Of a stretch of DNA of 64,000 nucleotides, positions 18,734 to 61,216 are shown piece after piece. The DNA lies in the NCBI GenBank assembly GCA_015143295.1, contig CM026561.1:37018875-37082874 (forward strand), written 5' to 3'. Under the pieces are notes generated by a model, which made no database searches, had not been told where the DNA came from, and saw only the letters and a list, made by a program, of their open reading frames with translations. This DNA is from Tetracentron sinense. Lineage: Eukaryota; Streptophyta; Magnoliopsida; Trochodendrales; Trochodendraceae. The stretch's first letter is position 1. The number at the start of each line of letters is the position of its first letter. The translations under genes and the position numbers were made by a program.

Positions 18734-19740
18734 GTCAGGTTACATACTGCATAATTATAACTCAGTCAGAAAAGAAACAACTAAACAGAGGCTTCTTCAA
18801 AGGAATTAAGAAATCTGAGAATGATTTTTTTGTTGGTCTATAACAGTAATAACCGCCGTTCAGCCAGGACCCACCCTCCATATTTCCCCTTGGTGGTTCT
18901 TCGTATTCTTGGGCAACAAGAAGATAGCTACTTATATCATCTCTGGCTCTGATGCAGCCCAAGATATGGGAGCCTACATTTTGAGATGTATTAAGTTATG
19001 TGGGTGTGAAAACGATGATATCAAGATCCATGATCAATTTATCTATAACCCATAACCCATAACCCATTACCCAAGCTCTAACTATCCATATACCCATTTA
19101 GCAAGTCAATGACCTTCCACCCCCTCATTAATGCTACCTAATGTTTAGTTGTAGAAAATGGTATTTTTCCATAAGTAGTGTTTCCCCATATATTAGTTAT
19201 AGTAAGTATAGAAACCTGAATCTTCTTTCATGTCTTTAATGAAAGTAATATGAGTATAATAGTTTTTGTGATATTTTAATGCTTATGTAATTATAACTAA
19301 ATGGTGTGGTGTGATCAAGGCATAATCAAATTTGTAAAGATGAGGGATGCCTTATCATACCCTCAACTTTTGGAAGCTTTAGTTTTTCCACCACTTATCG
19401 GAATTGAGTGATTCTTGAACCATTAAAAATGTATTGAAACCCTCTTCGAGGTTCATGTTTAATGTTTTTCCAGATTTTGAGTCGAGGTTAAGTTAAATAT
19501 TGGATTTCCGAAGTCGGGTCTGCTAAAATTCTGATCTGCTGTAATCCTTCCCAAACCAGTCAGCTTTAGAGACCATTTAGATAATTAAAACCTCAGAATT
19601 AGGATTTTTCCATTATACACAAATTGTTCATCTTTAAATGACGAATTCAACACAAGTTGAATCGTCAAAATCCAATAAGTGAGTCAAAAGTTATGGTCAA
19701 AATACCAAAGCGGAGGAAAAGAAAGTCGAAATCTGGGGGG

Positions 19741-19935
19741 TTGCGATCTATCGCAAAATACTGCGATCTATCATAAATTAAGTGCGATCTATCGCAAAAT
19801 ACTGCGATCGATCGCAGTCAGTCAAAATCTAGGGAATGCTCTCGGGTCAAAGTGCTATAGATCACCCTCCAGGTGCGATAAATCGCATTGGGTTGCGATC
19901 GATCGCAATGCAGGTGCAATCGATCGAGTCGCGCC
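19741..19935 (+). repeat. Cluster of GCGATCGATCGC-type palindromes in the LTR
   Basis: Seven or so copies of TGCGATCTATCGCA or TGCGATCGATCGCA separated by 10-30 bp. The paired position in the 3' LTR (24327-24517) has the same cluster with scattered C-to-T and G-to-A changes. Palindromic arrays like this look like protein-binding sites; function unknown. Confidence 0.7.
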
Positions 19936-21260
19936 CAGATTTTTTTTTTTAAGCTACAGAAATCAGGGTTTTAAACCTCTAGGCTCTAATAGAGGTTTTA
20001 TTTCGAGGTTTTTAGGGTTCTAAACCTAATTTGGAAAAGAGTGAGAAAACCTAGGTCTCTAAGGAAGAAATTGCTTGGAAGGAGATTGCAAGGGAAGCTT
20101 GAAAAATCAACCTCAAACCTTCTTGAGAGCGTTTTGGATCCAAGGGAAGGATCCCAAAGGTCAATATTCTCTCTAATCTAATCCTTATATTATTGTTTGT
20201 TGATTAAGTATGATAAACGATAAATGTGTATGGGATATTGCATGTTTAAGTAAGGATATAGATGAATTTTTATATTAGAAGCTTAAATTGGATTATGGGT
20301 TATGCTTTATGGGTTATGGATGTATGAAAATGATAGTGGATGGCTAAATTGATGAAGGAATGGATTATGGATGCATGGATTGGGGTTGAGCTTGAATTGG
20401 ATGCTCATAGATTATATGAATGACTATTGAATGATGGAAAAATGGGGAAGGGCAATGTACACATAACAAATACTCTTAAGGTGTTTGTTTAAATGCTTGA
20501 AAGTGTTTCAATGTTAATATGATGTTATTGAGAATTGAGAAACTAAGCTAAGGAGATGTTATGGTTTATCATGCTAAATTATGTGCTATTTATATAACAT
20601 AGAAGTTTTGCATGTGTTATAAATTCTAAGGAAATGAATTGGTGGATTTTATCTATAACATGGGGGTTTTACTTATTGTGTAAATTATATTAAGTATGAT
20701 TCTACTATTATGATGTTCTATGAATGAAGGAAAGATGATGAGATTTACTATTTATGAAGTTGGTTAAGAGAATCGTGAAATCATGATAAAGTATTGTTTA
20801 CTATGACTATGTAAATTATGCCATAAACACTCGTATGCTAAATCATGCCCTATTTATACTTATACGGTGATCGACATTCGGATAGGCCAAAGCCTAGAGG
20901 AAGTCCTCCGGGTCAGGAATTCTCTAACAAGGGAGATGTAACCTAATGGAGTTTTTTGGTGGAAGACTGTAGTCTAGACGATGACCGAGTTTGAATATTA
21001 ATCACGAATTTTAAATTATGCATATCTATATCGTATGGTGATTGATATCCAGGTAGGCCAAAGCTTAAAGGAAGGTCTTCCAAACCGGGAATTCTTTAAT
21101 CATATAGTATGAGACAATATGGTGGAGTTTCCATGGTGGGAGATTGGAACCTAAGTAATGACCGAGCTCATATGTTAATCACGACACTCAAGCACAAATT
21201 CACATGTATGGTAGTGCGCTTACAAGTCTCATGGGTATATAAGCATGGCATGAGCATTGC

Positions 21261-21460
21261 ATGGGCATGGTCCGTATCCATTCCGAGCGACATGTCAGTT
21301 AAGTTATTGTATGGGCATGATCCGTATATATTCCGAGCGGCATGTCAGTTATGTTATCGCATGGGCATGGTCCGTATCTATTCCGAGCGGCATGTCAATT
21401 ATGTTATTACATGGGCATGGTCTGTGTCTACTTCCGAGCGACATGCCAGTTACTTACAAG
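21261..21460 (+). repeat. 50-bp tandem repeat, four copies, in gypsy LTR
   Basis: Units start at 21261, 21311, 21361 and 21411, exactly 50 bp apart. Core ATGGGCATGGTCCGTAT, TTCCGAGCG, CATGTCAGTTA. The 3' LTR has a more degenerate five- to six-unit version at 24885-25170 with changed spacing. Confidence 0.9.
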
Positions 21461-22329
21461 TACTGAATCATAAACACTAATTACGAGGAAAATGAAACAT
21501 GATATGATATGTCTACATGTTCTTCTGCACTCATATTATAGGATTACGCATTGGATTGAGATATTGATTATGTAAATGCTATATGAACCTGTCATTGATT
21601 ATGTCATATGAACTTGTCATTGATTATGCAAATGTCATATGAATCTGTTATTAATTTTGTAACTGTCGCATGAATCTAATATTGGTTATGAACATGAGTT
21701 ATTGCTATTGTTAGTTAGACTGGATATCCGTTGAGCGTTGTCAATGCTCAATTGACCATTTATTGTCGTTAGGTTTAGAGCGAGTTGATTATTGAGCAGT
21801 AGTTGAAGATTTTTACGTCGAGATAGAAGAAGAAGGTGAGCCGCCGGTTGAGGAAGGTTGAGAATTGGTTAGGTGGCCACATTATTAGGCATTTTTTTAC
21901 ATTTTGAAAAAGATTTTAATAGACTTAGGTGTTTCAGGATGTTGCTTAGACTGTCTTACTTTTATTGGTGGTTTTAGACTATTTAGATTATGGTAGGTTA
22001 TGTCGGACAGATTACATTTGTACAGGATGGTTTTTTATATATCGAGTTTTATATTCTCATTTTGGAGACTTGTGTTGTATGCCTTGTATGTCATGGGATT
22101 TTAAGCAGGTTTAAGAAATGTGACGACCCAAGGTCCTATTTTGGTTAAGGTAGGATTTTGGGTCGTTACAAAGGTGGTATCAGAGCACAAGGCATTAAAG
22201 TCCTCATGGTTAGGAAGATGTCGATTTTAGGAAAGCAAGATCAAGTCTAGGACTTAGGATAGTAATAAGGTTAAGTTTGAAAGTTATCAATATCCTTTGA
22301 ATGGTTCTAAAAGATGTATAATTTATGTT

Positions 22330-23460
22330 TGACTTCAGGAATTGCAAGTCATGAGGAGAGGTGCGGGGAATAATAGGAATGGGAGGGTAGTGTGACAGAT
22401 GGAGATACTCCAGATGGTGGCCACCAGCCTAACATGAGTCGAGCTATGGAGGCTATTGCTATAGCCATGGAGTGATAGGTCAAGATTATGGCCCAACAAA
22501 CTACAGTGCTAGTAGCTGGCCAAGCTAGGCAAGAGAGGCCAATTGAGGTCCACCCACCCGACAGAATGGAGTGGAAGCTTTCAGGAGGATGGGTCTTCCA
22601 ACCTTCTATGGGAGCACGGATCCGTCAGTGGCAGAGTTGTGGATAATGCAGTTGAAGAAGATATTCTTTGTGCTTGAGGCCACATATGAGCAGAGAGTGA
22701 GATGAGCCTCATTTGTTATTGAAGGAGAGGCAGAGCATTGGTGGAGGGCGGCAGCCAGGAAGAGGAATGAGTGACGAGCTGGACAGGTATGGACTTGGGA
22801 GAGTTACTCGATGTCTTCTATGAGCTGTACTTTCCGACGCCGGTGAGGGAATAGAAGGAGATAGAGTTCTCCACTCTTCAGTAGGGGAGCATGTCAGTAG
22901 CCGAGTACGAGGCCAAGTTTGTAGAGATTTCTAGGTTTGCGCCTCATCTAATCACCACAAAGAGCATGAAGGCAAGGAGATTCAAAGGAGGTTTGAAAGA
23001 TTACATCCGAAACAAGGTCGAAATCCTATGTCTTGGAACATGTCGAGAGGTAAGCGAGCGAGCTTTGATTGCCGAGAGGAGGTCGGCTGAGTTTTTGAGG
23101 AAGAAGGGAATGAAGGAAGGCAAATATGGCCAGCAAGATAAGAAGCCAAGGGTGCCAAGACCAGTACCAGTTGCCAGGCCGCCCCGGTACCAGAGGCCTG
23201 CACTTGCACCTGTAGTTCCTCGTGTTGCTCCTCAGCCACCACGAGCTGTTCCACCTATTCCAGGGACACTGACTTACGAAATTTGTGGTCACTTTGGCAA
23301 GAAGCATGATACAGTGGAGTGTCGATCGGTCACAGGTGGATGCTTCCACTGTGAATAGCTTACCCATCGAGTCAGAGACTGCCCTCGTTGTGGTCGACAG
23401 AGGCCTCTATAGGCTCCAAGGCCTCAACAGCAGCCGCCCCCCCCCCCCCCCCCCCCCCCA
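22330..23460 (+). pseudogene. Ty3/gypsy gag pseudogene
   Basis: Capsid-type (Retrotrans_gag) wording survives in pieces: LPTFYGSTDPSVAELWIMQL near 22590-22650, EGEAEHWWRAAARK near 22720-22760, then an uninterrupted stretch from 22891 with MSVAEYEAKFVEISRFAPHL, a basic and proline-rich linker, and two cysteine knuckles. The second knuckle, CFHCE-stop-LTHRVRDC, is cut by a TAG at 23356-23358 where Gln is usual. Several other stops and frameshifts precede it. A run of 23 C residues (23437-23459) sits in the proline-rich tail. The frame resumes with the start of a protease-like stretch (QDAKAFNGVV) and then stops. Protease, RT, RNase H and integrase are absent. Confidence 0.8.
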
Positions 23461-23804
23461 CCCAAACACTCAAGGTAGGGTTTTCTCCATTTCAAAGCAA
23501 GATGCCAAGGCATTCAATGGCGTAGTACAGGATACATTCTACTTATGATTTGTTTATTTAAAATATTGTCATAATTGCATGATATATGTTTACTATATGT
23601 GTAAAAACATATTACCTATATGAATATGTTGTTTGTGTACTTAATCAACACAAATAGTTAAAATATGTCTCATGCACATTGTTGGTTAGTGAGTGTTCTA
23701 CTCATATGTGATTTAGAAACGTAAAGTATTTAGAGAAAAGTAATTCTCACTCGTACGATTAATCTCGTAATTTTGAGGACGGAATTCTAATAAGGAGGGG
23801 AGGA

Positions 23805-25892
23805 TGTAGAGACCTGAATCTTCTTTCATGCCTTTAATAAAAGTAATATGAGTATAATAGGTTTTTTTGATTTTTTAATGTTTATGTAATTATATCTAAA
23901 TGGTGTAGTGTGATCAAGGCATAATCAAAGTTGTAAAGAAGAGGGATGCCTTAACCTTCAACTTTAGGAAGCTTGTCACTGCTTATCGGAATCGAGTGAT
24001 TCTTGAACCATTAGAAAGGTATTGAAACCCTCTTAAAGGTTCATGTTTAATATTTTTCCAGATTTTGAGTCGAGGTTAAGTTAAATATTGGATTTTTAAA
24101 GCCGGGACTGTTGAAATTCTGGTTTGCTATAATCCATCCTAGACATGTCAACTTTAGAAACCATTTAGATAATTAAAACCTCATAATTAGGATTTTTCCA
24201 TTAGATACAAAATTATTCTCCTTTGAATGATGAGTTTAATGCAAGTTGAATCATCAAAATCCAATAATCGAGTCAAATGTTATGATTGAAATACCAAAGC
24301 GGAGGAAAAGAAAGTCGAAATCTGGGGGTTGCGATCTATCACAAAATACTGTGATCTATCCCAATTAAGTGTGATTTATCGTAAAATACTGTGATCGATC
24401 GCAGTCAGTCAAAATCTGGGGAATGCTCTCGGGTCAAAGTGTGATAAATCACCCTTCAGGTGCGATAGATCGCACTGGGTTGCGATCGATCGCAATTGCA
24501 TTGCGATCAATCGCAGTCGTGCCCAGATTTTTTTTTTTTAAAGCTACTAAAATCAGGGTCTTAAACTCATAGGATATAAATAGAGGTTCTATTTGTTTTA
24601 GGGTTCTAAACCTTTCTAAACTTAATTTGGCAAAGAGGGAGAGAAAACCTAGGTCTTTAAGGAAGAAATTGCTTGGAGAAGAAGGAGATTGCTTGGAGAT
24701 CGCAAGGGAAGCTTGAAAAATCAACCTCAAACCTTCTTGGGGGCATTTTGGATCCAAGGGAAAGATCCCAAAGGTCGATTTCCTCTCTAATCTAACCCTT
24801 ATATTATTGTTTGTTGATTAAGTATGATAAACGATGAATATGTATGGGATATTGCATGTTTAAGTAAGGATATAGATGGATTTGTATGGGCATGGGCATA
24901 GTCTGTATCCATTCTGAGCGGCATGTCAGTTAAGTTATTGTATGGGCATGGTCCATATATATTTCGAGCAGCATTTTAGTTATGTTATTGTATGGGCATG
25001 GTCCGTATCTATTCCGAGCGGCATGTCAGTTATGTTATCGCATAGGCATGGTCCGTATATGTCAGTATGCTATCGCATGGGCATGGTCCGTATCTATTCT
25101 GAGCGGGCATGTCAGTTATGTTATTACATGGGGATGGTCTATGTTTACTTCCGAGCGATATGCCAGTTACTTATAAGTATTGAATCATGAACACTGAATT
25201 ACGAGGACAATGAAACATGATATGATATGTCATATGTTCTTCCGCACTCTGATTATAGAATTACACATTGGATTGAGATATTGATTATGTAAATGCTATA
25301 TGAACCTGTCATTGATTATGTCATATGAACTTGTTATGGATTATGCAAATGTCATATGAATCTGTTATTGATTTTGTAACTGTCGCATGAATCTGATATT
25401 AGTTATGAACATGAGTTATTGTTATTGTTAGTTAGACTGGATATCCGTTGAGCGTTGTCAATGCTCAGTCGACCTGTTATTGTCGTTTGGTTTAGACCGA
25501 GTTGATTGCTGAGCCGTGGTTAAAGATTTCTACGTCGAGATAGAAGAAGAAGGTGAGTCGCTGGTTGAGGAAGCTCAAGAATTGGTTAGGTGGCCACATT
25601 ATTAAGCATTGTTTTGCATTTTGAAAATGATTTTAATAGACTTAGGTGTTTCAGGATGTTGCTTAGACTGTCTTACTTTTATTGGTGATCTTAGACTATC
25701 CCGATTATGGTGGGTTATGTTAGACAGATTATATTTGTACAGGATGGTTTGAGTTTTATATATCGAGTTTTATTATTCTCGTTTTGGAGACTTGTGTTGC
25801 ATGTCTTGTATTTTATGGGATTTTAAGCAGGTTTAAGAAATGTGGCGACCCAAGGTCCTATTTTGGTCAAGATAGGATTTTGGGTCGTTACA
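23805..25892 (+). repeat. Gypsy 3' LTR, 2088 bp
   Basis: Starts TGTAGAGACCTGAATC and ends GGGTCGTTACA. It aligns with the 5' LTR along its whole length except for the segment of about 0.9 kb it lacks. Many substitutions between the two LTRs (about one in ten by eye) show that this insertion is old. Confidence 0.85.
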
Positions 25893-26047
25893 GTAAGTGG
25901 GTTTAATTAATGTTGGTTGATGTTTTCCCATGATAGTGGGTTTTATAGTAGTTTTTCATGTGGGATCATTGTTCTCTATATATACTTAAGAAATGAAATG
26001 AGAAGGAACTTTCTTTGAATTGATATATGATATTATAAGCTTTTAGC

Positions 26048-26668
26048 CTAGGAAGCACGGATACTTCCAGCACGGATACTTCAAATAGGGGTTCGTACCC
26101 GTATCCGATACGTATCGGATACGGATACACCTCTGATACGGCGGGATACGGCTGAAACGTATCCTGTTAATTAAAAATAAATTTTTTTATTTCGGATACG
26201 GCTCCGATACGGCATGGATACGTCCGGGATACGCCGGGATACGTCCGGGATACGGCCGTTTATATATATTTTTAAATTTTTAAATTTTTAAATTTTTTAA
26301 ATTTTTTTATTTTTATTTAATTTTTTTTTGGAGACCCGTGGGTGTGACCCTATCTCTTTTGTTTTTGCATGGACATGGTCTTCTTTATATTTTGCTTAGT
26401 GGATAATAGGATGACTTTCTTTTTTACTTAGTGGATGATGAGATGACCCTATTTCTTTTGCTTTTGCATGGACATGGTCTTTTTTATACATAAAGAGAAC
26501 TGAACCAATGGTTATTTTGTAATTATAATACAAAATATAGTATTATTACTATTTATAAAAAAAAATTACAGACGTATCCTGGCCGTACTAGTATCCTATT
26601 TTTTTAGGTTTTGCCGTATCGCTGTATCCGTATCGTATCATACCCGTATCCGTATCCGTGCTTCCTAG
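26048..26668. mobile_element. hAT-like TIR element with CGGATACG repeats, 621 bp
   Basis: Perfect 17-bp TIRs CTAGGAAGCACGGATAC / GTATCCGTGCTTCCTAG, flanked by the 8-bp direct repeat CTTTTAGC (26040-26047, 26669-26676). The empty site is seen in the sister LTR near 27930-27940. Both ends carry many copies of GTATCCGTATC or GGATACGG. No transposase: a non-autonomous element. Confidence 0.85.
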
Positions 26669-26822
26669 CTTTTAGCTTATTTTTAGTTTAGTTATTCTCT
26701 TGTGAGATAACTTGCTGAATTTGGGTGTTGAGGAGTCCACATTTATGAGTTTGGGTCATTTTTACACTCTAAAACGACCAAGTCTTTCGTCGTTTTCCTT
26801 CAAATTAAATCACCCTGCATCA

Positions 26823-27541
26823 GTTGGTATCAGAGTAAGTTCGTCCGTTGGGAGGTTCATAGAATTACGATTCTAATCAATTCATTTGATTTAGTAAAGA
26901 CTAATCTTTGTGTCATATCGTTTGACACGATGGCAACAAAAAGTCTTTGGGAATATTCTATGGATCGCCAATTTATAACTTGTATGGTGATGAAGATGAA
27001 GGCAATAGAGAAAATATCCATCAACAACTTTTAATTTAAAAAATGGCAAGTAACCAAACAAGTGTTTTAATATCAACCTCAAAGTCTTATTCTTCAAATG
27101 AAAAGATTGTAGATTGGGAGTCACCGCCAATCGTTGATGAATATTTAGATAACGGTTATTTACTCACAGTTGAAACTCTTATTTATGAAGAAGAAAAGTA
27201 TACATTGATTTCATTGTCTGTCAATGAAGATCCATTCTTATGGAGATCCTTAGAGGTTTCTTTAAAGATGACATGTATGGTGCCGATTGTAATTTTCAAG
27301 AATATCTACACCACCATTGGAAGGCATCCTAAAAATTCAAGTCGAGAAAAATATGCAAGCAATGTGTCATGGACTTATCGTTGGTTTCATATGATAATAT
27401 CATTGAGAAATAAAATATTTTTGAGGTAAGAATTAAGAAATTAAAGTGGAAGTTTTGGGCAAACCGAAGACCCAAGATCAAGGCTCAATTGAAGCAACAC
27501 CGTAGGAACTCGTGGGCGAGTTCTTTTCAAGAGGAGGAGAA
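26823..27541 (+). other. Remnant internal region of the LARD-like element
   Basis: PBS TGGTATCAGAG (initiator-Met tRNA) at 26825-26835, two bases after the 5' LTR. One open stretch of 128 codons (27043-27429) begins MASNQTSVLISTSKSY and has no domain I recognise. Just before the 3' LTR the frame reads NSWASSFQEEENDA, which resembles the C-terminal end of Ty3/gypsy pol. The polypurine tract CAAGAGGAGGAGAA lies at 27528-27541. Confidence 0.6.
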
Positions 27542-28085
27542 TGATGCAGCCCAAAATATGAGAGCCTACATTTTGAGATGTATTATGTTATGTGGGTGTG
27601 AAAAGTATGATATCAAAATCCATGATCCATTTATCTATAACCCATGACTCATTACCCATGCTCTAACTATCCATATACCCATTTAGCAAGTCAATGACCT
27701 TCCACCTCCTCATTAATGTTACCTAATGTTTAGTTGTAGAAAATGGTATTTTCACATAAGTAGTGTTTCCCCATATATTAGTTATAGTAGGTGGGTTTAA
27801 TTAATGTTGTTTGATGTTTTCCCATGATAGTGGGTTTTGTAGTAGTTTCTCATGTGGAATCATTGTCTCTATATATACCTAAGAAATGAAATGAGAAAGA
27901 ACTCTCTTTGAATTAATATATGATATTATAAGCTTTTAGCTTATTTTAGTTTAGTAATTCTTTTGTTAGATAACTTTCTGAATTTGGGTGTTGAGGAGTC
28001 CACCTTGCTGAGTATGGGTCGTTTTTACACTCTAAAACTACTAAGTCTTTCATGGTTTTCATTTAAATTAAATCGCCCTGCATTA
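27542..28085 (+). repeat. 3' LTR of the LARD-like element, 544 bp
   Basis: TGATGCAGCCCAA ... CCCTGCATTA. It is the intact copy that reveals where the two insertions split the 5' LTR. TATA-like TATATATAC at about 27867, with GTATAA-poor surroundings. Confidence 0.85.
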
Positions 28086-28090
28086 GGCTC

Positions 28091-35140: not shown

Positions 35141-35718
35141 GAAAGCTTAAGAAGAATCCTGGCAAAAATCACTGACACAAGCTAGTACCATGTGAATCTT
35201 CCATTGAATCATCTTCCATGAATAGATAAAAATCTGCTCATCTGAGACAGCACTGTCCCTTATGTGTCTAGTACCTCATTGGCACCAAGCACCTAAATGA
35301 ACCTGCCAAAATAAAAGTTGACTCAAGATTTTCTATAAATAACCGATAATGCAATAGATTATGGTATCAGAATGGTGCAAAAAATACATTAAAATGGATT
35401 TATCTTCCATATACAGCATAGGTCGATAAAAGAAAGCTTAAGAACAATCCTGGCATAAATCACTGACACAAGCTAGTACCATGTGAATCTTCCATTGAAT
35501 CATCTTCCATGAATAGATAAAAATCTGCTCAATCTGAGACAGCACTGTCCCTTATGTGTCTAGTACCTCATTGGCACCAAGCACCTAAATGAACCTGCCA
35601 AAATAAAAGTTGAGTCAAGATTTTCTATAAATAACCGATAATGCAATAGATTATGGTATCAGAATGGTGCAAAAAATACATTAAAATGGATTTATCTTCC
35701 ATATACAGAGGTCGATAA
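35141..35718. repeat. Tandem duplication, 291-bp period
   Basis: Copy one 35141-35431 and copy two 35432-about 35718 share nearly every base (GAAAGCTTAAGAA, GACAGCACTGTCCC, CCTCATTGGCACCAAGCACC, ATAACCGATAATGC). Only a handful of substitutions and small indels, so recent. It ends about 80 bp before the copia insertion and contains no gene. Confidence 0.9.
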
Positions 35719-35800
35719 AAAAATGTTGGACATCAGGAACACCAAATAATAATATAAGCATAATGAATTTTAAAAAAAAAATAGAACAGTAGGAACAGAT

Positions 35801-36025
35801 TATTAGGAAGATTGTAAACTTGATTCTATATTCTGTATTTGGTTTGATTCTACATTCTGTATATGCACCTTGTAACGGCTACTAGCCAACCCATACCTCA
35901 TTCTTAGCTAGGAAACTATCCCTCCATCAAGGCAAGGATCAAGGGATACCAATTGTGTACAACCTCTATATATTGTTTTATCCCTCAAGTAATAAAATCA
36001 ATTCGGTTCATACCAAAACTTCATA
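35801..36025 (+). repeat. Copia 5' LTR, 225 bp
   Basis: TATTAGGAAGATTG ... AAAACTTCATA; ends TA...TA rather than TG...CA. Contains CTCTATATATTG as a possible TATA region at about 35964 and AATAAA near its end. Identical to the 3' LTR except AGCTA versus AGATA. Confidence 0.93.
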
Positions 36026-36037
36026 TGGTATCAGAGC
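36026..36037 (+). promoter_or_regulatory. Primer binding site of copia (initiator-Met tRNA)
   Basis: TGGTATCAGAGC starts at the first base after the LTR, complementary to the 3' end of plant initiator methionine tRNA. Confidence 0.9.
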
Positions 36038-36106
36038 AATACCGATCATAGACACCTTCTTGTCTTGTTCCTTCCGCATCCATTACTTCATCTCTGATCA
36101 GCGACA

Positions 36107-37400
36107 ATGTCCAATAGTTCCGGCACTACAGCCACCACTGAACCCACTATGACAATGTCCAACAGTTCCGGCACTACAGCCACCACTGAATCCACTATGG
36201 AAATCGGTAATCCTTTCTACCTCCATCACTCGGACAATCCGGGGACTGTTCTTGTTTCTCAGCCACTCAATGGTGACAATTATGCCTCTTGGAGCCGTGC
36301 CATGAGTATGGCACTCAATGCTAAGAACAAGACAAGCTTTGTTGACTGATCCATACCAAAACCTGATGCTCTTTCGCCAAGTTATTCCTTGTGGGTTCGC
36401 TGCAATAATATGGTCTCGTCATGGCTTCTCAATGCCATCAATCCAGATCTAGCACATAGTGTTCTCTACACCGAATCAGGGGATGAGATATGGACAGATT
36501 TAAAAGAGCGGTTCTCTCAAAGCAATGCAACGCGCATTTTCCAGATCAAGAGGTCTATTTCCTCTCATATTCAAGGTCAGAATTCTGTCGCATCTTATTT
36601 CAATTAGTTGAAAGGATATTGGGATGAGCTTGCTTCCTATATTTCTCTACAAACATGTAGTTGTGGGGCTCTCAAAAGCCTCACAGAACATGAGCAGCGA
36701 GAAAAGATCCTCCAATTTTTGATGGGTTTAAATGATACATACTCGGCCATTCGAGGACAGATTCTCCTCATGGAGCCGTTACCCTCATTGAATAAAACAT
36801 ACTCTCTTGTTCTTCAAGAGGAAAGGTAGCGAGAGATAACCATGAACACAAACAATGCCGATGTTTCTGCTCTTCTTGTTAATGCTGCCAGCACAGGAGG
36901 AAAATGGCGAGAACGCCCAACTTGTGAGCACTGCGGATTAGTTGGACACACCAAGACCAAGTGCTATAAACTACATGGTTACCCACCTGGTCACAGACTC
37001 CACAAGGCTGGTCGTGCCCCTCCCAAATAGAATTCCAGCGATTCTAGCAGCCCCTCCTTCACACCCGAGCAGTACCACCAAATCCTTTCTCTTCTCCAAA
37101 ATGGTAATCCTATGGCAAACCTTGCAGGTATATCTACTTGTTGTTTATCCTCCTTTGAAGCTAATTCTTGGATTATTGATACTGGTGCAAGTGATCACAT
37201 GGTTTCATCACCCACCTTCTTGCACAAACCCATTCCACCCAACACTTTACAACCTGTCAAATTACCCAATGGTGCCGCAGTGCCCATTACTCACATTGGA
37301 TCGGCTCACATTAGTCCAACCATGCATATTGACAATGTTTTGTGTGTTCCATCTTTCAAATTTAATCTTTTATCCATGAGTAAATTGACTCGCTCGTTGA
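36107..37400 (+). pseudogene. Copia gag-protease, four in-frame stops
   Basis: One frame throughout, no frameshift. Gag N-terminus NYASWSRAMSMALNAKN. The body includes WLLNAINPDLAHSVLY and FSQSNATRIFQIKRSI. The zinc knuckle CEHCGLVGHTKTKCYKLHG is CX2CX4HX4C. The protease has the catalytic motif IIDTGASDHM and ends at SKLTRSLNC, where the inverted block begins. Stops: TGA 36347-36349, TAG 36605-36607, TAG 36827-36829 and TAG 37028-37030. The N-terminal 50 bases hold a 15-codon direct duplication (SNSSGTTATTEPTM, twice). Gag-PR protein can no longer be made in one piece. Confidence 0.9.
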
Positions 37401-38595
37401 ATTGCTCTGATACCATATGAAGTTTTGGTATGAACCGAATTGATTTTATTACGTGAGGGATAAAACAATATATAGAGGTTGTACACAATTGGTATCCCTT
37501 GATCCTTGCCTTGATGGAGGGATAGTTTCCTATCTAAGAATGAGGTATGGGTTGGCTAGTAGTCGTTACAAGGTGCATATACAGAGTGTAGAATCAAACC
37601 AAATACAGAATATAGAATCAAGTTTACAATACGAAGTGGATGGGTAATCAGCCTTGGCAAGGGTGTAATGGTAGTCTCGTAACCAAGTAGAGGGCTGGAG
37701 ATGTCGTTGGGAGTGTCGGACAGCTGGTGGAGAGGCAACAAGAGAAAGTAAAGAAGGATCAGCCAAGAGAGGAGGGGTTTCGGCGATGACAATGGGCTGA
37801 GGGGCTCCATGTTCGAAGGGGGGAATGGGTAAGGGTAAAGAGGGGGTTGGTGATGGTGGGGTGGATGTGGTGGAAGGGGTGGTGGAGAAAGGAAATGTAG
37901 TTTCATGAAAAAGACATCCCGGCTGGAAAATATCTTGTGTGTGGTAAGATCATACATGCGGTAGGCCTTTTGGCCATAAGGGTAGCCAATGAAAATACAC
38001 TTTCGAGCTCGATGATCGAATTTTGTACGGCTTGTGCTAGTGTTAGTGGAAAAACAAAGACAACCGAAGACCCGTAAATGAGAGTAAGATGGTTGCTTGT
38101 GAAAAAGAACTTCATATGGTGTGCGGCCCGAGAGGAGGGGAGTAGGCATGCGATTTAAGAGATAAGTGGCGGTGAGCACACATTCACCCCAAAAACAAAT
38201 GGGTAAATGGGCTTGAAACCGTAAGGCCCGTGCCACCTCAAGAATGTGGCGATGTTTTCTTTCAACCACACCATTCTGTTGGGGTGTGTAGGCACAACTA
38301 CGTTGATGATAAATGCCATTTTCAACAAAAAATGAACTCATAGAAAGAAATTCAGCACCATTATCACTTCTTATAGATTGAACTTGCCGATGAAATTGAT
38401 TTTTCACTAAGGCTAGAAATGATTTTAATAGGGACTGAGTTTCAGATTTGAATTTCATTAGATAGGTCCACGTGCAACGGGAAAAATCATCAACAATTGT
38501 TAAAAAATAGTGTGCACCGGAATTAGAAGGTGTAGCATACCCACCCCAAATATCACAATGAATTAAACAAAATGGCTCAGCAGAAATTTTATTGC
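37401..38595 (-). other. Inverted block inside copia: IN core + LTR + PBS
   Basis: Read on the minus strand: integrase core, linker, a 215-bp LTR copy (37416-37630, lacking its first 10 bases), then the PBS (37404-37415). The left border falls inside the protease-IN junction at about 37400. The right border lies at a 13-bp palindrome, AGCAGAAATTTTA (38579-38591) / TAAAATTTCTGCT (38596-38608). The HHCC zinc domain that should precede the IN core was not found. Confidence 0.88.
37416..37630 (-). repeat. Third, inverted LTR copy inside copia
   Basis: Reverse complement of the terminal LTRs over 215 bases with three private differences (near 37454, 37563 and 37583). At the one site where the terminal LTRs differ it matches the 3' LTR. 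The missing 10 bases are TATTAGGAAG. It is oriented to fire leftward, antisense to gag. Confidence 0.9.
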
Positions 38596-38600
38596 TAAAA
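37640..38600 (-). pseudogene. Copia integrase core, inverted
   Basis: The catalytic core (rve) is open on the minus strand. First Asp in LIHCDIWG, second Asp in IRSDNGAEF, Glu in QNGVVERKHRHI, so the DDE triad is intact. It is followed by the GKR-type downstream wording (LRVFGCLCF, KCIFIGYPYGQKAYR) and a proline/histidine-rich linker ending DYHYTLAKADYPSTS, where it meets the inverted LTR. The N-terminal HHCC domain is missing. It cannot be read from the element's own sense transcript because it is on the other strand. Confidence 0.9.
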
Positions 38601-40150
38601 TTTCTGCTACTTTCGAACCCACTACTTTTGCTCAAGCTATGTAGGATCCTCAATGGCGAATTGCCATGGATGTTGAAATTACGATACTCGAGTGCAATCA
38701 TACTTGGACAGCTACTTCTTTGCCACCACATACCAAACCCATTGGTTGTAAGTGGGTTTATAAAATCAAGCACCGCTCTGATGGTAGTATCGAGCGCTAT
38801 AAGGCTCGCCTCATAGCCAAGGGCTATACACAGACCGTCGGGCTTGACTACCATGAGACATTTGCACCTGTTGCCAAACTTATCACTGTCCGATGTCTCC
38901 TTGCCATTGCCTCCGTTAAAAGATGGCCTCTTCATCAGTTAGACGTTCATAATGCATTCCTCCATGTAGATCTTGATGAGGAGGTCTACATGACCTTGCC
39001 TCCCGGTTATCCACGACATGGGGAGAAACTTATTTGTCGCCTACACAAATCTCTATATGGCCTCAAATAGGCTTCTCGCAATTGGTTCTCCAAGTTCTCG
39101 TCTATTGTTCGAGATGCGGGTTACATACAATCCAAAGCCAACTACTCACTATTTACTCGCTCTCATGGCTCCTCTTTCACAGCTGTTCTTGTCTATGTTG
39201 ACGACATCATTGTGTCCAGTAATCATCCTCCTGATATCCTTGCTCTTAAAGAATTTCTCCACCGTCGTTTTCATATCAAGGATCTTAGTCCTCTCAAGTT
39301 TTTTTTGGGCATAGAAATTGCCCGTTCTCCGCAAGGCATTTGCATCTCTCAACGCAAATATACTCTTGAGATTCTTGATGACATGGGCCTTCTTGGTGCT
39401 CGTCCAACAACATTTCCTATGGAGCAAAATCTTAAATTGACTATGGATGATGGCGAGCTTCTTTCCGACCCTACCATTTATCGCCGCCTTATTGGTCGTT
39501 TGATTTATCTGATGATCACACGACCCGACATTGTTTACTCTGTCCATGTCCTTAGTCAATTTATGCATCAACCACGCAAACCTCATCTTGATGCTGCCAT
39601 GCGTGTTCTTCGCTATTTAAAAGGTTCTCCAGGTCAAGGGCTTCTCTTATCATCTACAAGCAGTTTACAGTTGAAAGGTTTTTGCGATTCTGATTGGGCA
39701 AGCTGCCCTTGGACTCGGTGCTCTACCACTGGTTATTGTACTATGTTGGGTGATTCTCTCATTTCATGGAAAACCAAAAAGCAACACACGGTCTCCCGCT
39801 TATCGGCTGAAGCAGAATACCGTGCCCTGGCTGTTGCAAGTTGCGAACTCACTTGGCTCCTCTACCTCCTACACGACTTAGGGGTCTCACACTCACATCC
39901 AGTTATTTTATTTTGTGACAATCAAGCTGCCCTCCATATTGCAGCCAACCCAGTTTTCCATGAACGAACTAAACACATCGAACTCGATTGTCATTTAGTT
40001 CGTGAAAAAATCCAATCGGGTCTGATTCAAACTCGTCATCTTTCGACTGCACAACAAGTAGCCGATCTCTTCACTAAACCTTTGGGCAAAGCAAAATTTC
40101 AATATCTTGTTGGCAAGTTGGGTGTCCATAGTATTCACACTCCAACTTGA
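38596..40150 (+). pseudogene. Copia reverse transcriptase-RNase H, two in-frame stops
   Basis: Same frame as gag. The RT start is [12 protein letters not shown], then [30 protein letters not shown] and the catalytic YVDDIIV at about 39193-39213. RNase H includes [32 protein letters not shown] and [20 protein letters not shown]. It ends at 40150, seven bases before the 3' LTR. Stops: TAG 38642-38644 and TAG 39068-39070 (GLK-stop-ASRNWF, where Gln is usual). Otherwise intact. Confidence 0.92.
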
Positions 40151-40157
40151 GGGGGAG

Positions 40158-40382
40158 TATTAGGAAGATTGTAAACTTGATTCTATATTCTGTATTTGGT
40201 TTGATTCTACATTCTGTATATGCACCTTGTAACGGCTACTAGCCAACCCATACCTCATTCTTAGATAGGAAACTATCCCTCCATCAAGGCAAGGATCAAG
40301 GGATACCAATTGTGTACAACCTCTATATATTGTTTTATCCCTCAAGTAATAAAATCAATTCGGTTCATACCAAAACTTCATA
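40158..40382 (+). repeat. Copia 3' LTR, 225 bp
   Basis: Preceded by polypurine tract GAGGGGGAG; same ends as the 5' LTR. TSD CAGAT follows at 40383-40387. Confidence 0.93.
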
Positions 40383-40387
40383 CAGAT

Positions 40388-58274: not shown

Positions 58275-61216
58275 GAGTCGAAATATATGCGTTAGAAGAA
58301 ACGGGATCGAAATCCGACCCTTGGTCTCTAAATGGTGGGACGATGTAGGTTTAGGCCGTAGTATAGTTGTGAAACATGGAATTCGACCGTCTTGGTGCCC
58401 AAATCGGGCATATGGCCTCGGATTTGCTCGAAACCAACCCCAACACTTATGATGTATTGAAATACACGCATTAGAATAAATGAGATTGAAATCCGACCCC
58501 TGGTTTGGAAATGGTGGGACAATGTAGGTTTAGGCCGTAGTATAGTTGTGAAACATGGAATTCGGCCGTTTTGGCACCCAAATCGGGCATACGGCCTCGG
58601 ATTCGCCCGAAACTAACTCCAAGACTTAGGATGTATTGAAATATACGCATTAGAAGAAACGGGATCGAAATCCGACCTCCAGTTTGGAAATTGTGGGAGT
58701 TTGTAGGTTTAGGCCGAAGTATAGTATTCAAAAATGGATTACGGCCGACTCGGCGGCCAAATCGGGCATACGGCCTCGGATTCACTCGAAACCAACTCCA
58801 ACACTTAGGATATATTGAAATACACGCGTTAGAAGAAACAGGAGCGAAATCCGACCCCTGGTTTCGAAATGGTGGGAGTTTGTAGGTTTAGGCCGAAGTA
58901 TAGTATTCAATAATAGATTTCGACCATCTCGACGACCAAATCGGGCATACGGCCTCGGATCGCTCGAAACCAACCTCAACACTTAGGATGTATTGAAATA
59001 TACGTGTTAAAAGAAACGGGATCAAAAACCGACCCCTGTTTTGGAAATGGTGGGAGTTTGTAGGTGTAGGCCGAAGTATAGTATTCAAGAATGGATTCCG
59101 GCTGTCTCGGCACCCAAATCGGGCATACGGCCTCAGATTCCTTTGAAACCAACCTCAACACTTAGGATGTATTGAAATACATGCGTTAGAAGAAACGGGA
59201 TCGAAATCCGACCCCCGGTTTGAAAATGGTGAGACGATGTAGGTTGAGGCCGTAGTATAGTTGTGAAACATGGAATTTGACCGTCTCGGGGCCCAAATCG
59301 GGTATACGGCCTCAGATTCGCTCGAAACCAATCACAATATTTAGGATGTATTAAAATACACACGTTAGAAGAAATGGAATCGAAATCCGACCCCCGGTTT
59401 GGAAATGGTGGGAGTTTGTAGGTTTAGGCAAGTATAGTATTCAAGAATGGATTCCGGCCGTCTCGGCCCCCAAACCAGGCATACGGCATCGGATTCGCTC
59501 GAAACCAACTCCAACACTTAGGATGTATTGAAATACACATGCTAGAAGAAATGTGATTGAAATCCGACCCCCGGTTTCGAAATGGTTGGACGATGTAGGT
59601 TTAGGCCGTAGTATAGTTGTGATACATGGAATTCAGCCGTCTCGGCTCCCAAATCAAGCATACGGCCTCGGATTCGCTCGAAACCAACTCCAACACTTAG
59701 GATGTATTGAAATACATGCATTAGAAGAAACGGAATCAAAATTTGACTCTCGGTTTGGAAATGGTGAGAGTTTGTAGGTTTAGGCCGAAGTATAGTATTC
59801 AATAATGGATTCCGGCCGTCTTGGCGCCTAAATCAGGCATACGGTCTCGGATTCGCTCGAAACCAACTCCAACACTTAGGATGTATTGAAATACATGCAT
59901 TAGAAGAAACGGAATCAAAATTTGACTCTCGGTTTGGAAATGGTGAGAGTTTGTAGGTTTAGGCCGAAGTATAGTATTCAATAATGGATTCCGGCCGTCT
60001 TGGCGCCTAAATCAGGCATACGGTCTCGGATTCGCTCGAAACCAACTCTAACACTTAGGATGTATTGAAATACATACATTAGAATAAACGGGATCGAAAT
60101 CTGACTCCCGGTTTGGAAATGGTGGGACGATGTATATTTAGGCCATAGTATAGTTGTGAAACATGGAATTCGGCCGTCTCGGCACCAAATCGGGCATACG
60201 GCCTCGGATTCCCTCGAAACCAACTCTAACACTTAGGATGTATTAAAATACACACATTAGAAGAAACGGGATCAAAATCCGACCACCGGTTTGGAAATGG
60301 TGGGAATTTGTAGGTTTAGGCCGAAGTATAGTATTCAAGAATGGATTTCGGCCGTCTCCACGCTCAAATCGGGCATACGATATCGGATTCGCTTGAAACT
60401 AACCCCAACACTTAGGATGTATTGAAATACATGCGTTAGAAGAAATGAGATCGAAATCCGACCCCGATTTCGAAATGGTGGGACGATGTAGGTTTAAGCC
60501 GTAGTATAGTTATGAAACATGGAATTCGGCCGTCTCGGCGCCCAAATCGAGCATACATCCTCGGATTCGCTCGAAACCAACCTCAATACTTAGGATGTAT
60601 TGAAATACATACGTTACAAGAAACGGGATCGAAATCCGACCCTCGGTTTCGAAATGGTGGAGTTTGTAGGTTTAGGCCGAAGTATAGTATTCAATAATGG
60701 ATTTCGACCCTCTCGGTGCCCAAAACTGGAATACAGCCTCAGATTCGCTTGAAACCAACTCCAACACTTAGGATGTATTGAAATACACACGTTAGAAGAA
60801 ATGAGATCAAAATCCGACCCCCGATTTCGAAATTGTGGGAGTTTGTAAGTTTAAGCCGAAGTATAGTATTCAAAAATGGAATTCGGCCATCTCGGCACCC
60901 AAATCGGGCATATTGCCTCGGATTCACTTGAAACTAACTCCAACAGTTAGGATGTATTGAAATACACATGTTAGAAGAAATTGGATCAAAATTTGACCCC
61001 CGATTTCGAAATGGTGGGAGTTTGTAGGTTTAGGCCGAAGTATAGTATTCAATAATGGATTTCAACCGTCTTGACGCCGAAATCAAGCATACGGCCTCGG
61101 ATTTGCTTGAAACCAATCCTAACACTTAAGATGCATTGAAAGACATGCATTAGAAGAAACGGGATCGAAATCCGACCCTCGGTTTCGAAATGGTGGGACG
61201 ATGTAGGTTTAGGCCA
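58275..61216 (+). repeat. 179-bp satellite array, about 16.5 units
   Basis: The word ATGTATTGAAATAC recurs at 58451, 58631, 58810, 58988, 59167, 59346, 59523, 59702, 59881, 60060, 60238, 60417, 60595, 60773, 60952 and 61131: spacing 177-180, mostly 179. Unit core: AAACGGGATCGAAATCCGAC, AGGTTTAGGCCG, CCCAAATCGGGCATACGGCC, TCGGATTCGCTCGAAACCAA. Two subtypes differ in the middle: A (GACGATGTAGG, CGTAGTATAGTTGTGAAACA) and B (GAGTTTGTAGG, CGAAGTATAGTATTCAA). Short frames on both strands are repeat artefacts. Confidence 0.95.

Follow-up and report, generated by a model that had tools for sequence, protein, structure and literature searches.

The window analyzed here, i.e., the whole stretch of 64,000 nucleotides from Tetracentron sinense (assembly GCA_015143295.1, contig CM026561.1, positions 37,018,875 to 37,082,874), contains a Copia-type LTR retrotransposon of 4,582 bp at positions 35801–40382, all of it inside one target duplication. 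The features of this element, with protease, integrase and reverse transcriptase abbreviated as PR, IN and RT and with the relatives described further below referred to as L009–L015, are the following.

35796–35800, no strand: left target-site duplication CAGAT, identical to the right copy at 40383–40387
35801–36025, plus strand: 5' LTR of 225 bp, TATTAG...TTCATA, with a TATA box at 35967 and AATAAA at 35991
36026–36037, plus strand: PBS TGGTATCAGAGC, directly adjoining the 5' LTR
36098–37407, plus strand: gag and protease region with four in-frame stops, aligned with L009–L011 and L014 up to 37407
37401–37407, no strand: left joint, a 7-nt microhomology (ATTGCTC) between native PR sequence and PBS complement
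37404–37415, minus strand: inverted PBS
37416–37630, minus strand: inverted LTR, nt 11–225, with three changes relative to both outer LTRs and with TATATA and AATAAA kept
37628–37633, no strand: middle joint between the integrase-RT linker (...CTTCGT) and LTR nt 11, with no clear microhomology
37631–38579, minus strand: integrase core, SH3-like domain and linker, inverted in place, with the region just before the core lost
38579–38608, no strand: right joint, palindrome AGCAGAAATTTTA-TTGC-TAAAATTTCTGCT, consisting of a native 5-bp stem and a 7–8-nt fold-back copy (38579–38586)
38587–40150, plus strand: reverse transcriptase and RNase H region (Pfam RVT_2) with two premature in-frame stops, colinear with the relatives
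40150–40157, plus strand: putative polypurine tract AGGGGGAG, assigned by its motif
40158–40382, plus strand: 3' LTR, the main predicted pairing partner of the inverted LTR (193 bp)
40383–40387, no strand: right target-site duplication CAGAT, a perfect match to the left copy

The outer LTRs differ from each other at 1 of 225 positions (5' vs. 3') and are enclosed by a 5-bp target duplication, as is characteristic of Copia (Ty1-copia) elements. LTR ends are usually TG...CA. Those at 35801 and 36025 are the start of TATTAG and the end of TTCATA, respectively, and the TATTAG start is also found in L009–L011. The PBS TGGTATCAGAGC is presumably the complement of the 3' end of initiator tRNA-Met; scans of the window for tRNA genes and Rfam families returned no matches. 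Similarly, we take AGGGGGAG to be the polypurine tract on the basis of its motif. The gag, Pol_BBD, rve and RVT_2 domains are all detected by Pfam, with the integrase inverted. In the gag-protease region, Retrotran_gag_3 and Pol_BBD (1–78 of 81 positions) are matched, and Retrotran_gag_2 scores 22.6 bits, below its 27-bit cut-off. The four in-frame stops in gag-PR and the two premature ones in RT indicate that the copy is defective. The start of gag contains two tandem 48-bp copies (36103–36199), and a 292-bp tandem duplication (97%) is found at 35141–35720, about 75 bp upstream of the target duplication.

The preliminary description of this locus had noted an inverted LTR and PBS copy (37404–37630) opposite the 5' LTR and PBS (35801–36037), and this pair is real: positions 37630–37401 form a 230-nt inverted match, 98% complementary to 35811–36040, with 1,360 nt between the arms and a BLAST E value of ~1e-111 for a chance match. 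The first 10 nt of the LTR are missing from the inverted LTR, which is also 99% complementary to the 3' LTR over 215 nt. Together with its PBS, it constitutes a piece of 227 nt that begins with LTR nt 11 and extends up to the end of the PBS, where it enters the left joint. Plus-strand strong-stop DNA (U3-R-U5-PBS) extends from LTR nt 1 to the PBS. The inverted piece starts at nt 11 and ends at the PBS, at a joint that is ambiguous by 7 nt; thus, its extent is close to that of plus-strand strong-stop DNA but inexact at the 5' end. Autointegration predicts the LTR's terminal base at the joint; it is rejected here, since the LTR continues through the PBS.

The structure of the native element can be deduced from other copies in the genome, which was searched (1.16 Gb, 1,479 contigs) with match counts that are lower bounds. 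A query of the LTR with its PBS is found in at least 21 places (21 of 21 candidates scored). Seven relative loci were selected by place, five of which (L009–L012 and L014) reach the PR-IN-RT region, whilst L013 and L015 do not; the set leaves aside weaker LTR matches (C13, C14 and further C1 places) and left-joint matches of 79–87%. The order PR-IN-RT is colinear in all five relatives that reach this region, and the family shows the Copia domain order gag-PR-IN-RT-RH. The four relatives with both LTRs have target duplications of their own, i.e., TGTAA, GAGTC, GACGA/GACAA and ACATC, the last of these in L012. No relatives were found in the viral_contigs and genome_contigs collections. Copia-like RT-RNase H sequences 30% identical to that of the window are present in NZ_CP115302.1 (L016, 2260–5159) and NZ_CP115454.1, small records labeled as plasmids of rhizosphere Streptomyces and Kitasatospora that are perhaps eukaryotic contaminants.

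The inverted integrase block, with Pfam matches to rve (4–102 of 102 positions) and SH3_retrovirus, aligns in reverse to positions 2417–3370 of L009. Sequence is missing on both sides of it: 309, 303 and 302 bp between PR and IN in comparison with L009, L010 and L011, respectively, and 88 bp between IN and RT in comparison with each of these three. The colinear relatives and the flanking losses together indicate that the integrase block was turned around at its original position, its ends being trimmed. A simple inversion through recombination of inverted repeats is rejected on account of the unequal flanking losses and of the added LTR piece.

The joints were compared with the native copies. 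At the left joint, native PR sequence ending in TTGAATTGCTC runs into the PBS complement, TGATACCATATG, and the 7 nt ATTGCTC are common to both; with the L012 allele, the microhomology extends to 9 nt. Given this microhomology, the PBS tail fits tRNA-primed cDNA and element DNA alike. At the middle joint, the linker ending in CCACTTCGT abuts LTR nt 11, ATTGTAAAC, with no clear overlap. At the right joint, native RT sequence, read antisense and ending in AGCAGAAATTTTAGCAATAAAA, gives way to TTTCTGC(T), after which comes native integrase sequence, (T)GAGCC. The inserted 7–8 nt are the reverse complement of the bases across a native 5-bp stem, and the most likely explanation is that a 3' end folded back and copied itself. 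The resulting palindrome has an arm of 13 nt. Palindromes with arms of at least 13 nt and a loop of 3–12 nt occurred at a mean of 0.0 in 20 Markov-randomized windows (simple repeats excluded), and chance is rejected as the source of the palindrome at this joint; the real window contains four by the same criteria, i.e., two AT repeats, one AT-rich stretch and the right joint.

In searches with the LTR and with two of the three joints, the rearrangement was found at one locus only. Among the at least 21 places matched by the LTR query, the window alone has an opposite-strand LTR match within element distance of another. The window is also the only locus spanning the full left-joint query (1 of 40 scored matches, from 52 candidates) and the full middle-joint query (1 of 32 scored matches, from 32 candidates). 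An amplified rearranged subfamily is, therefore, not supported by the LTR search or by the searches with these two joints.

These observations are probably best explained by a single defective Copia-type copy that was rearranged once, by break repair combined with capture of a cDNA intermediate, and that most likely is a relic. A single DNA molecule of the element would have been broken twice. This molecule may have been the linear cDNA before integration or, less likely, an integrated copy. Its middle (integrase) piece would have been rejoined backwards, a reverse-transcription intermediate of approximately the extent of plus-strand strong-stop DNA (U3-R-U5-PBS) would have been captured at one joint, and the other joint would have been sealed by fold-back synthesis. 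Breakage and rejoining of one molecule is suggested by the three internal blocks, which are present without overlap. Support for the repair scenario as a whole comes from the colinearity of PR-IN-RT in all five relatives and the comparison of the joints with native copies, from the palindrome with its 13-nt arm at the right joint, and from the boundaries of the captured piece at LTR nt 11 and the PBS end, whilst the presence of the left and middle joints and of the opposite LTR pair at only one locus argues for a one-off event.

Precedents in yeast lend further support to repair with capture. With Ty1 cDNA, capture at breaks has a hotspot at the LTR end, and cDNA-only nucleotides were present in 40 of 56 such Ty1 inserts (PMC10802722, preprint). 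Likewise, breaks give rise to short fold-back inversions (PMC11724301). The Ty1 case resembles the present one in that a cDNA piece from the LTR end is found at a joint. However, the yeast inserts were obtained at experimental chromosomal breaks (PMC10802722), whereas the piece in the window lies inside an element of the same family. Alternatively, the 5' LTR of the element may have served as a local template for the inverted piece.

As to how the rearrangement originated, the main competing explanation, which we consider rather unlikely, is that reverse transcriptase switched templates within the particle. The nascent minus strand would fold back and copy minus-strand integrase DNA; copying would then proceed through the LTR to the tRNA/PBS end, followed by a mis-transfer to PR RNA. 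A single continuous path of this kind would account for the PBS end and all three joints as well as for the intactness of the outer LTRs, and both the fold-back and the microhomology at the PBS end fit. Moreover, Copia template-switch complexes with normal target duplications have been reported (PMC1950507). The three internal blocks, with no overlap and small losses only, nevertheless resemble one broken molecule, and copying between templates should often leave duplicated blocks. The three-LTR Copia complexes of Angela and Opie similarly have a third, internal LTR, near-identical outer LTRs and one 5-bp target duplication, but their internal LTR is common to two complete cores (PMC1950507), whereas that in the window is inverted and no core is duplicated. 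Consequently, the window copy does not qualify as a template-switch complex in the sense of Sabot and Schulman.

A nested antisense insertion of the kind described for EVD, in which a second copy of the family enters the element and deletions follow, would also place an inverted LTR inside an element (PMC11624286). Here, the inner copy has no complete outer LTR edge, no internal block is duplicated, the LTR leads via the PBS to PR sequence, and what is inverted is the integrase region missing from the element itself; such an origin is hardly credible. An EVD-type nested insertion would entail a complete LTR edge and a separate target duplication at the inner copy, whereas here nt 1–10 are gone on one side of the inverted LTR, and the PBS and then PR follow on the other. 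An assembly artefact or a chimeric read is also highly improbable. The locus is known from the assembled genome alone, which leaves room for such an error, but the two losses, the self-templated insert, the microhomology and the inverted LTR's own set of changes all fit repair, and the flanks and the target duplication are intact.

The evidence, weak as it is, leans towards an event before integration. First, the captured piece appears to be derived from the same small family. Second, changes are at least as numerous in the inverted LTR as in the outer LTRs: 3 in 215 nt were counted vs. 1 in 450 (P ~0.10). The higher count is only suggestive of the inverted LTR being older than the outer LTRs; a comparison of the outer LTRs with the internal private changes yielded P ~0.08. 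One of the three changes, at LTR nt 78, is also present in an LTR of L012.

From the layout of the element, it is plausible that both arms of the inverted LTR match belong to one transcription unit. The preliminary description had proposed that RNA started in the 5' LTR would form an LTR hairpin in which R-U5-PBS pairs with the inverted copy. A fold was computed for an RNA taken to extend from 36000, ~30 nt downstream of the TATA box at 35967, to 40372. A hairpin is indeed predicted, but its main partner is a different one. From the assumed start, the 5' end can offer only the R-U5-PBS segment 36000–36040 (~41 nt), and in the minimum-energy fold, the 3' LTR takes up 193 of the 230 inverted-LTR bases and the 5' R-U5-PBS 36, with 1 left unpaired. 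Thus, in a transcript running from end to end, pairing with the 3' LTR would yield a U3-R hairpin of 193 bp, in addition to a duplex of ~36–41 bp at the 5' end. The longest predicted helix, with small bulges allowed, measures 193 bp vs. 30, 31 and 17 bp in L009, L010 and L011, and the fold energy is -343.9 kcal/mol per kb vs. -249.7, -253.7 and -247.2, respectively. This contrast, i.e., a 193-bp helix and -344 kcal/mol per kb vs. 17–31 bp and -247 to -254 in the relatives, is among the points in favor of the explanation preferred above. The duplex would hold the U3 promoter and, hence, would suit transcriptional silencing better than one of R-U5. In addition, since TATATA and AATAAA are retained in the inverted LTR, this LTR could possibly give rise to an antisense PR-gag RNA facing the 5' LTR.

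If transcribed end to end, the window copy would be a possible local source of siRNAs, and the most probable reading is that of a relic, present in a single copy, with the potential for silencing. A more ambitious proposal, which we regard as doubtful at best, is that of a natural retrotransposon silencer comparable to Mu killer, with siRNAs that methylate the promoters of the family. Its dsRNA would arise when transcripts fold, mainly by pairing of the inverted LTR with the 3' LTR, or when they meet antisense RNA from the inverted LTR. It would draw on the 193-bp duplex predicted in full-length RNA from the assumed transcript ends, on the facing LTR promoters with TATATA kept and on a U3 promoter that appears to fall within the duplex. 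By its LTR differences in 225 positions (1, vs. 4, 4, 4 and 19 in the others), the window copy is the youngest of the five dated copies, as would be expected if activity then stopped; yet a copy is the youngest of five with a chance of 0.2. Methylation-type changes were considered as a footprint of silencing, but no excess was found: private C>T/G>A changes account for 27 of 42 in the window copy vs. 18 of 33 in L009 and 26 of 43 in L010, in a count over five of the six aligned copies (L014 left out, L013 and L015 unused) with gapped columns dropped. Furthermore, all five relatives counted (L009–L012 and L014) have at least one stop within their aligned pieces, in counts that cover six protein pieces and not whole frames, so the family may have decayed without any involvement of the window copy. 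That cDNA repair flipped the integrase and captured the strong-stop piece, that the product integrated, and that its 193-bp hairpin then shut the family down is, as a complete sequence of events, very unlikely.

Precedents for such a silencer are Mu killer and the facing repeats of DIRS-1. Mu killer (Muk) of maize is likewise a rearranged transposon copy with a self-complementary transcript, which in the window is a prediction. Muk, however, derives from a DNA transposon, and a perfect 2.4-kb hairpin RNA and siRNAs have been reported for it (PMC2563033), whereas the window copy has 193 bp, by prediction only, with a loop of 2.5 kb. DIRS-1 of Dictyostelium similarly has facing terminal-repeat promoters, but there the facing repeats are the normal structure of the family, and siRNAs and silencing in trans were demonstrated with constructs (PMC4482531).

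A retrotransposon version of Mu killer, as the preliminary description called it, is not a new idea. In 2024, LTR hairpins from antisense Copia copies were proposed for EVD (ATCOPIA93) of Arabidopsis, and both a hairpin model and a convergent-transcription model were put forward for the LTR siRNAs (PMC11624286). An antisense nested copy was found in an rdr6 line, where its role in silencing is untested (PMC11624286). Thus, EVD, too, is a Copia element with oppositely oriented LTRs a few kb apart, but there a second copy was inserted in the first, whereas in the window the element's own integrase is flipped and a lone LTR-PBS piece is present. Shared internal LTRs were described in a 2025 study of tandem LTR elements, in the accessible text of which no inverted case was found (PMC11899658). 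In a literature search confined largely to open sources, no LTR-PBS piece lying inverted within a single target duplication came to light in the texts retrieved.

How plants first recognize a new retrotransposon is an open question, and a simple trigger would be an LTR hairpin that arises incidentally when the element replicates or is repaired. The joints described here show base by base how a locus with an inverted LTR can arise without nested insertion, and they offer a search rule for further cases, i.e., an inverted LTR continuing into its PBS within one target duplication. If siRNAs are found at this locus, it would provide a natural test of hairpin-first silencing; if they are absent, inverted LTR copies need not trigger silencing.

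The window contains other repeats besides this element. Diverged repeated segments (86–93%) occupy 18950–28086, with 50-bp tandem arrays at 21256–21452 and 24892–25060. At 58280–61215, there is an array of ~16 copies of a 179-bp tandem repeat with 84% matches, the unit length of which is satellite-like.
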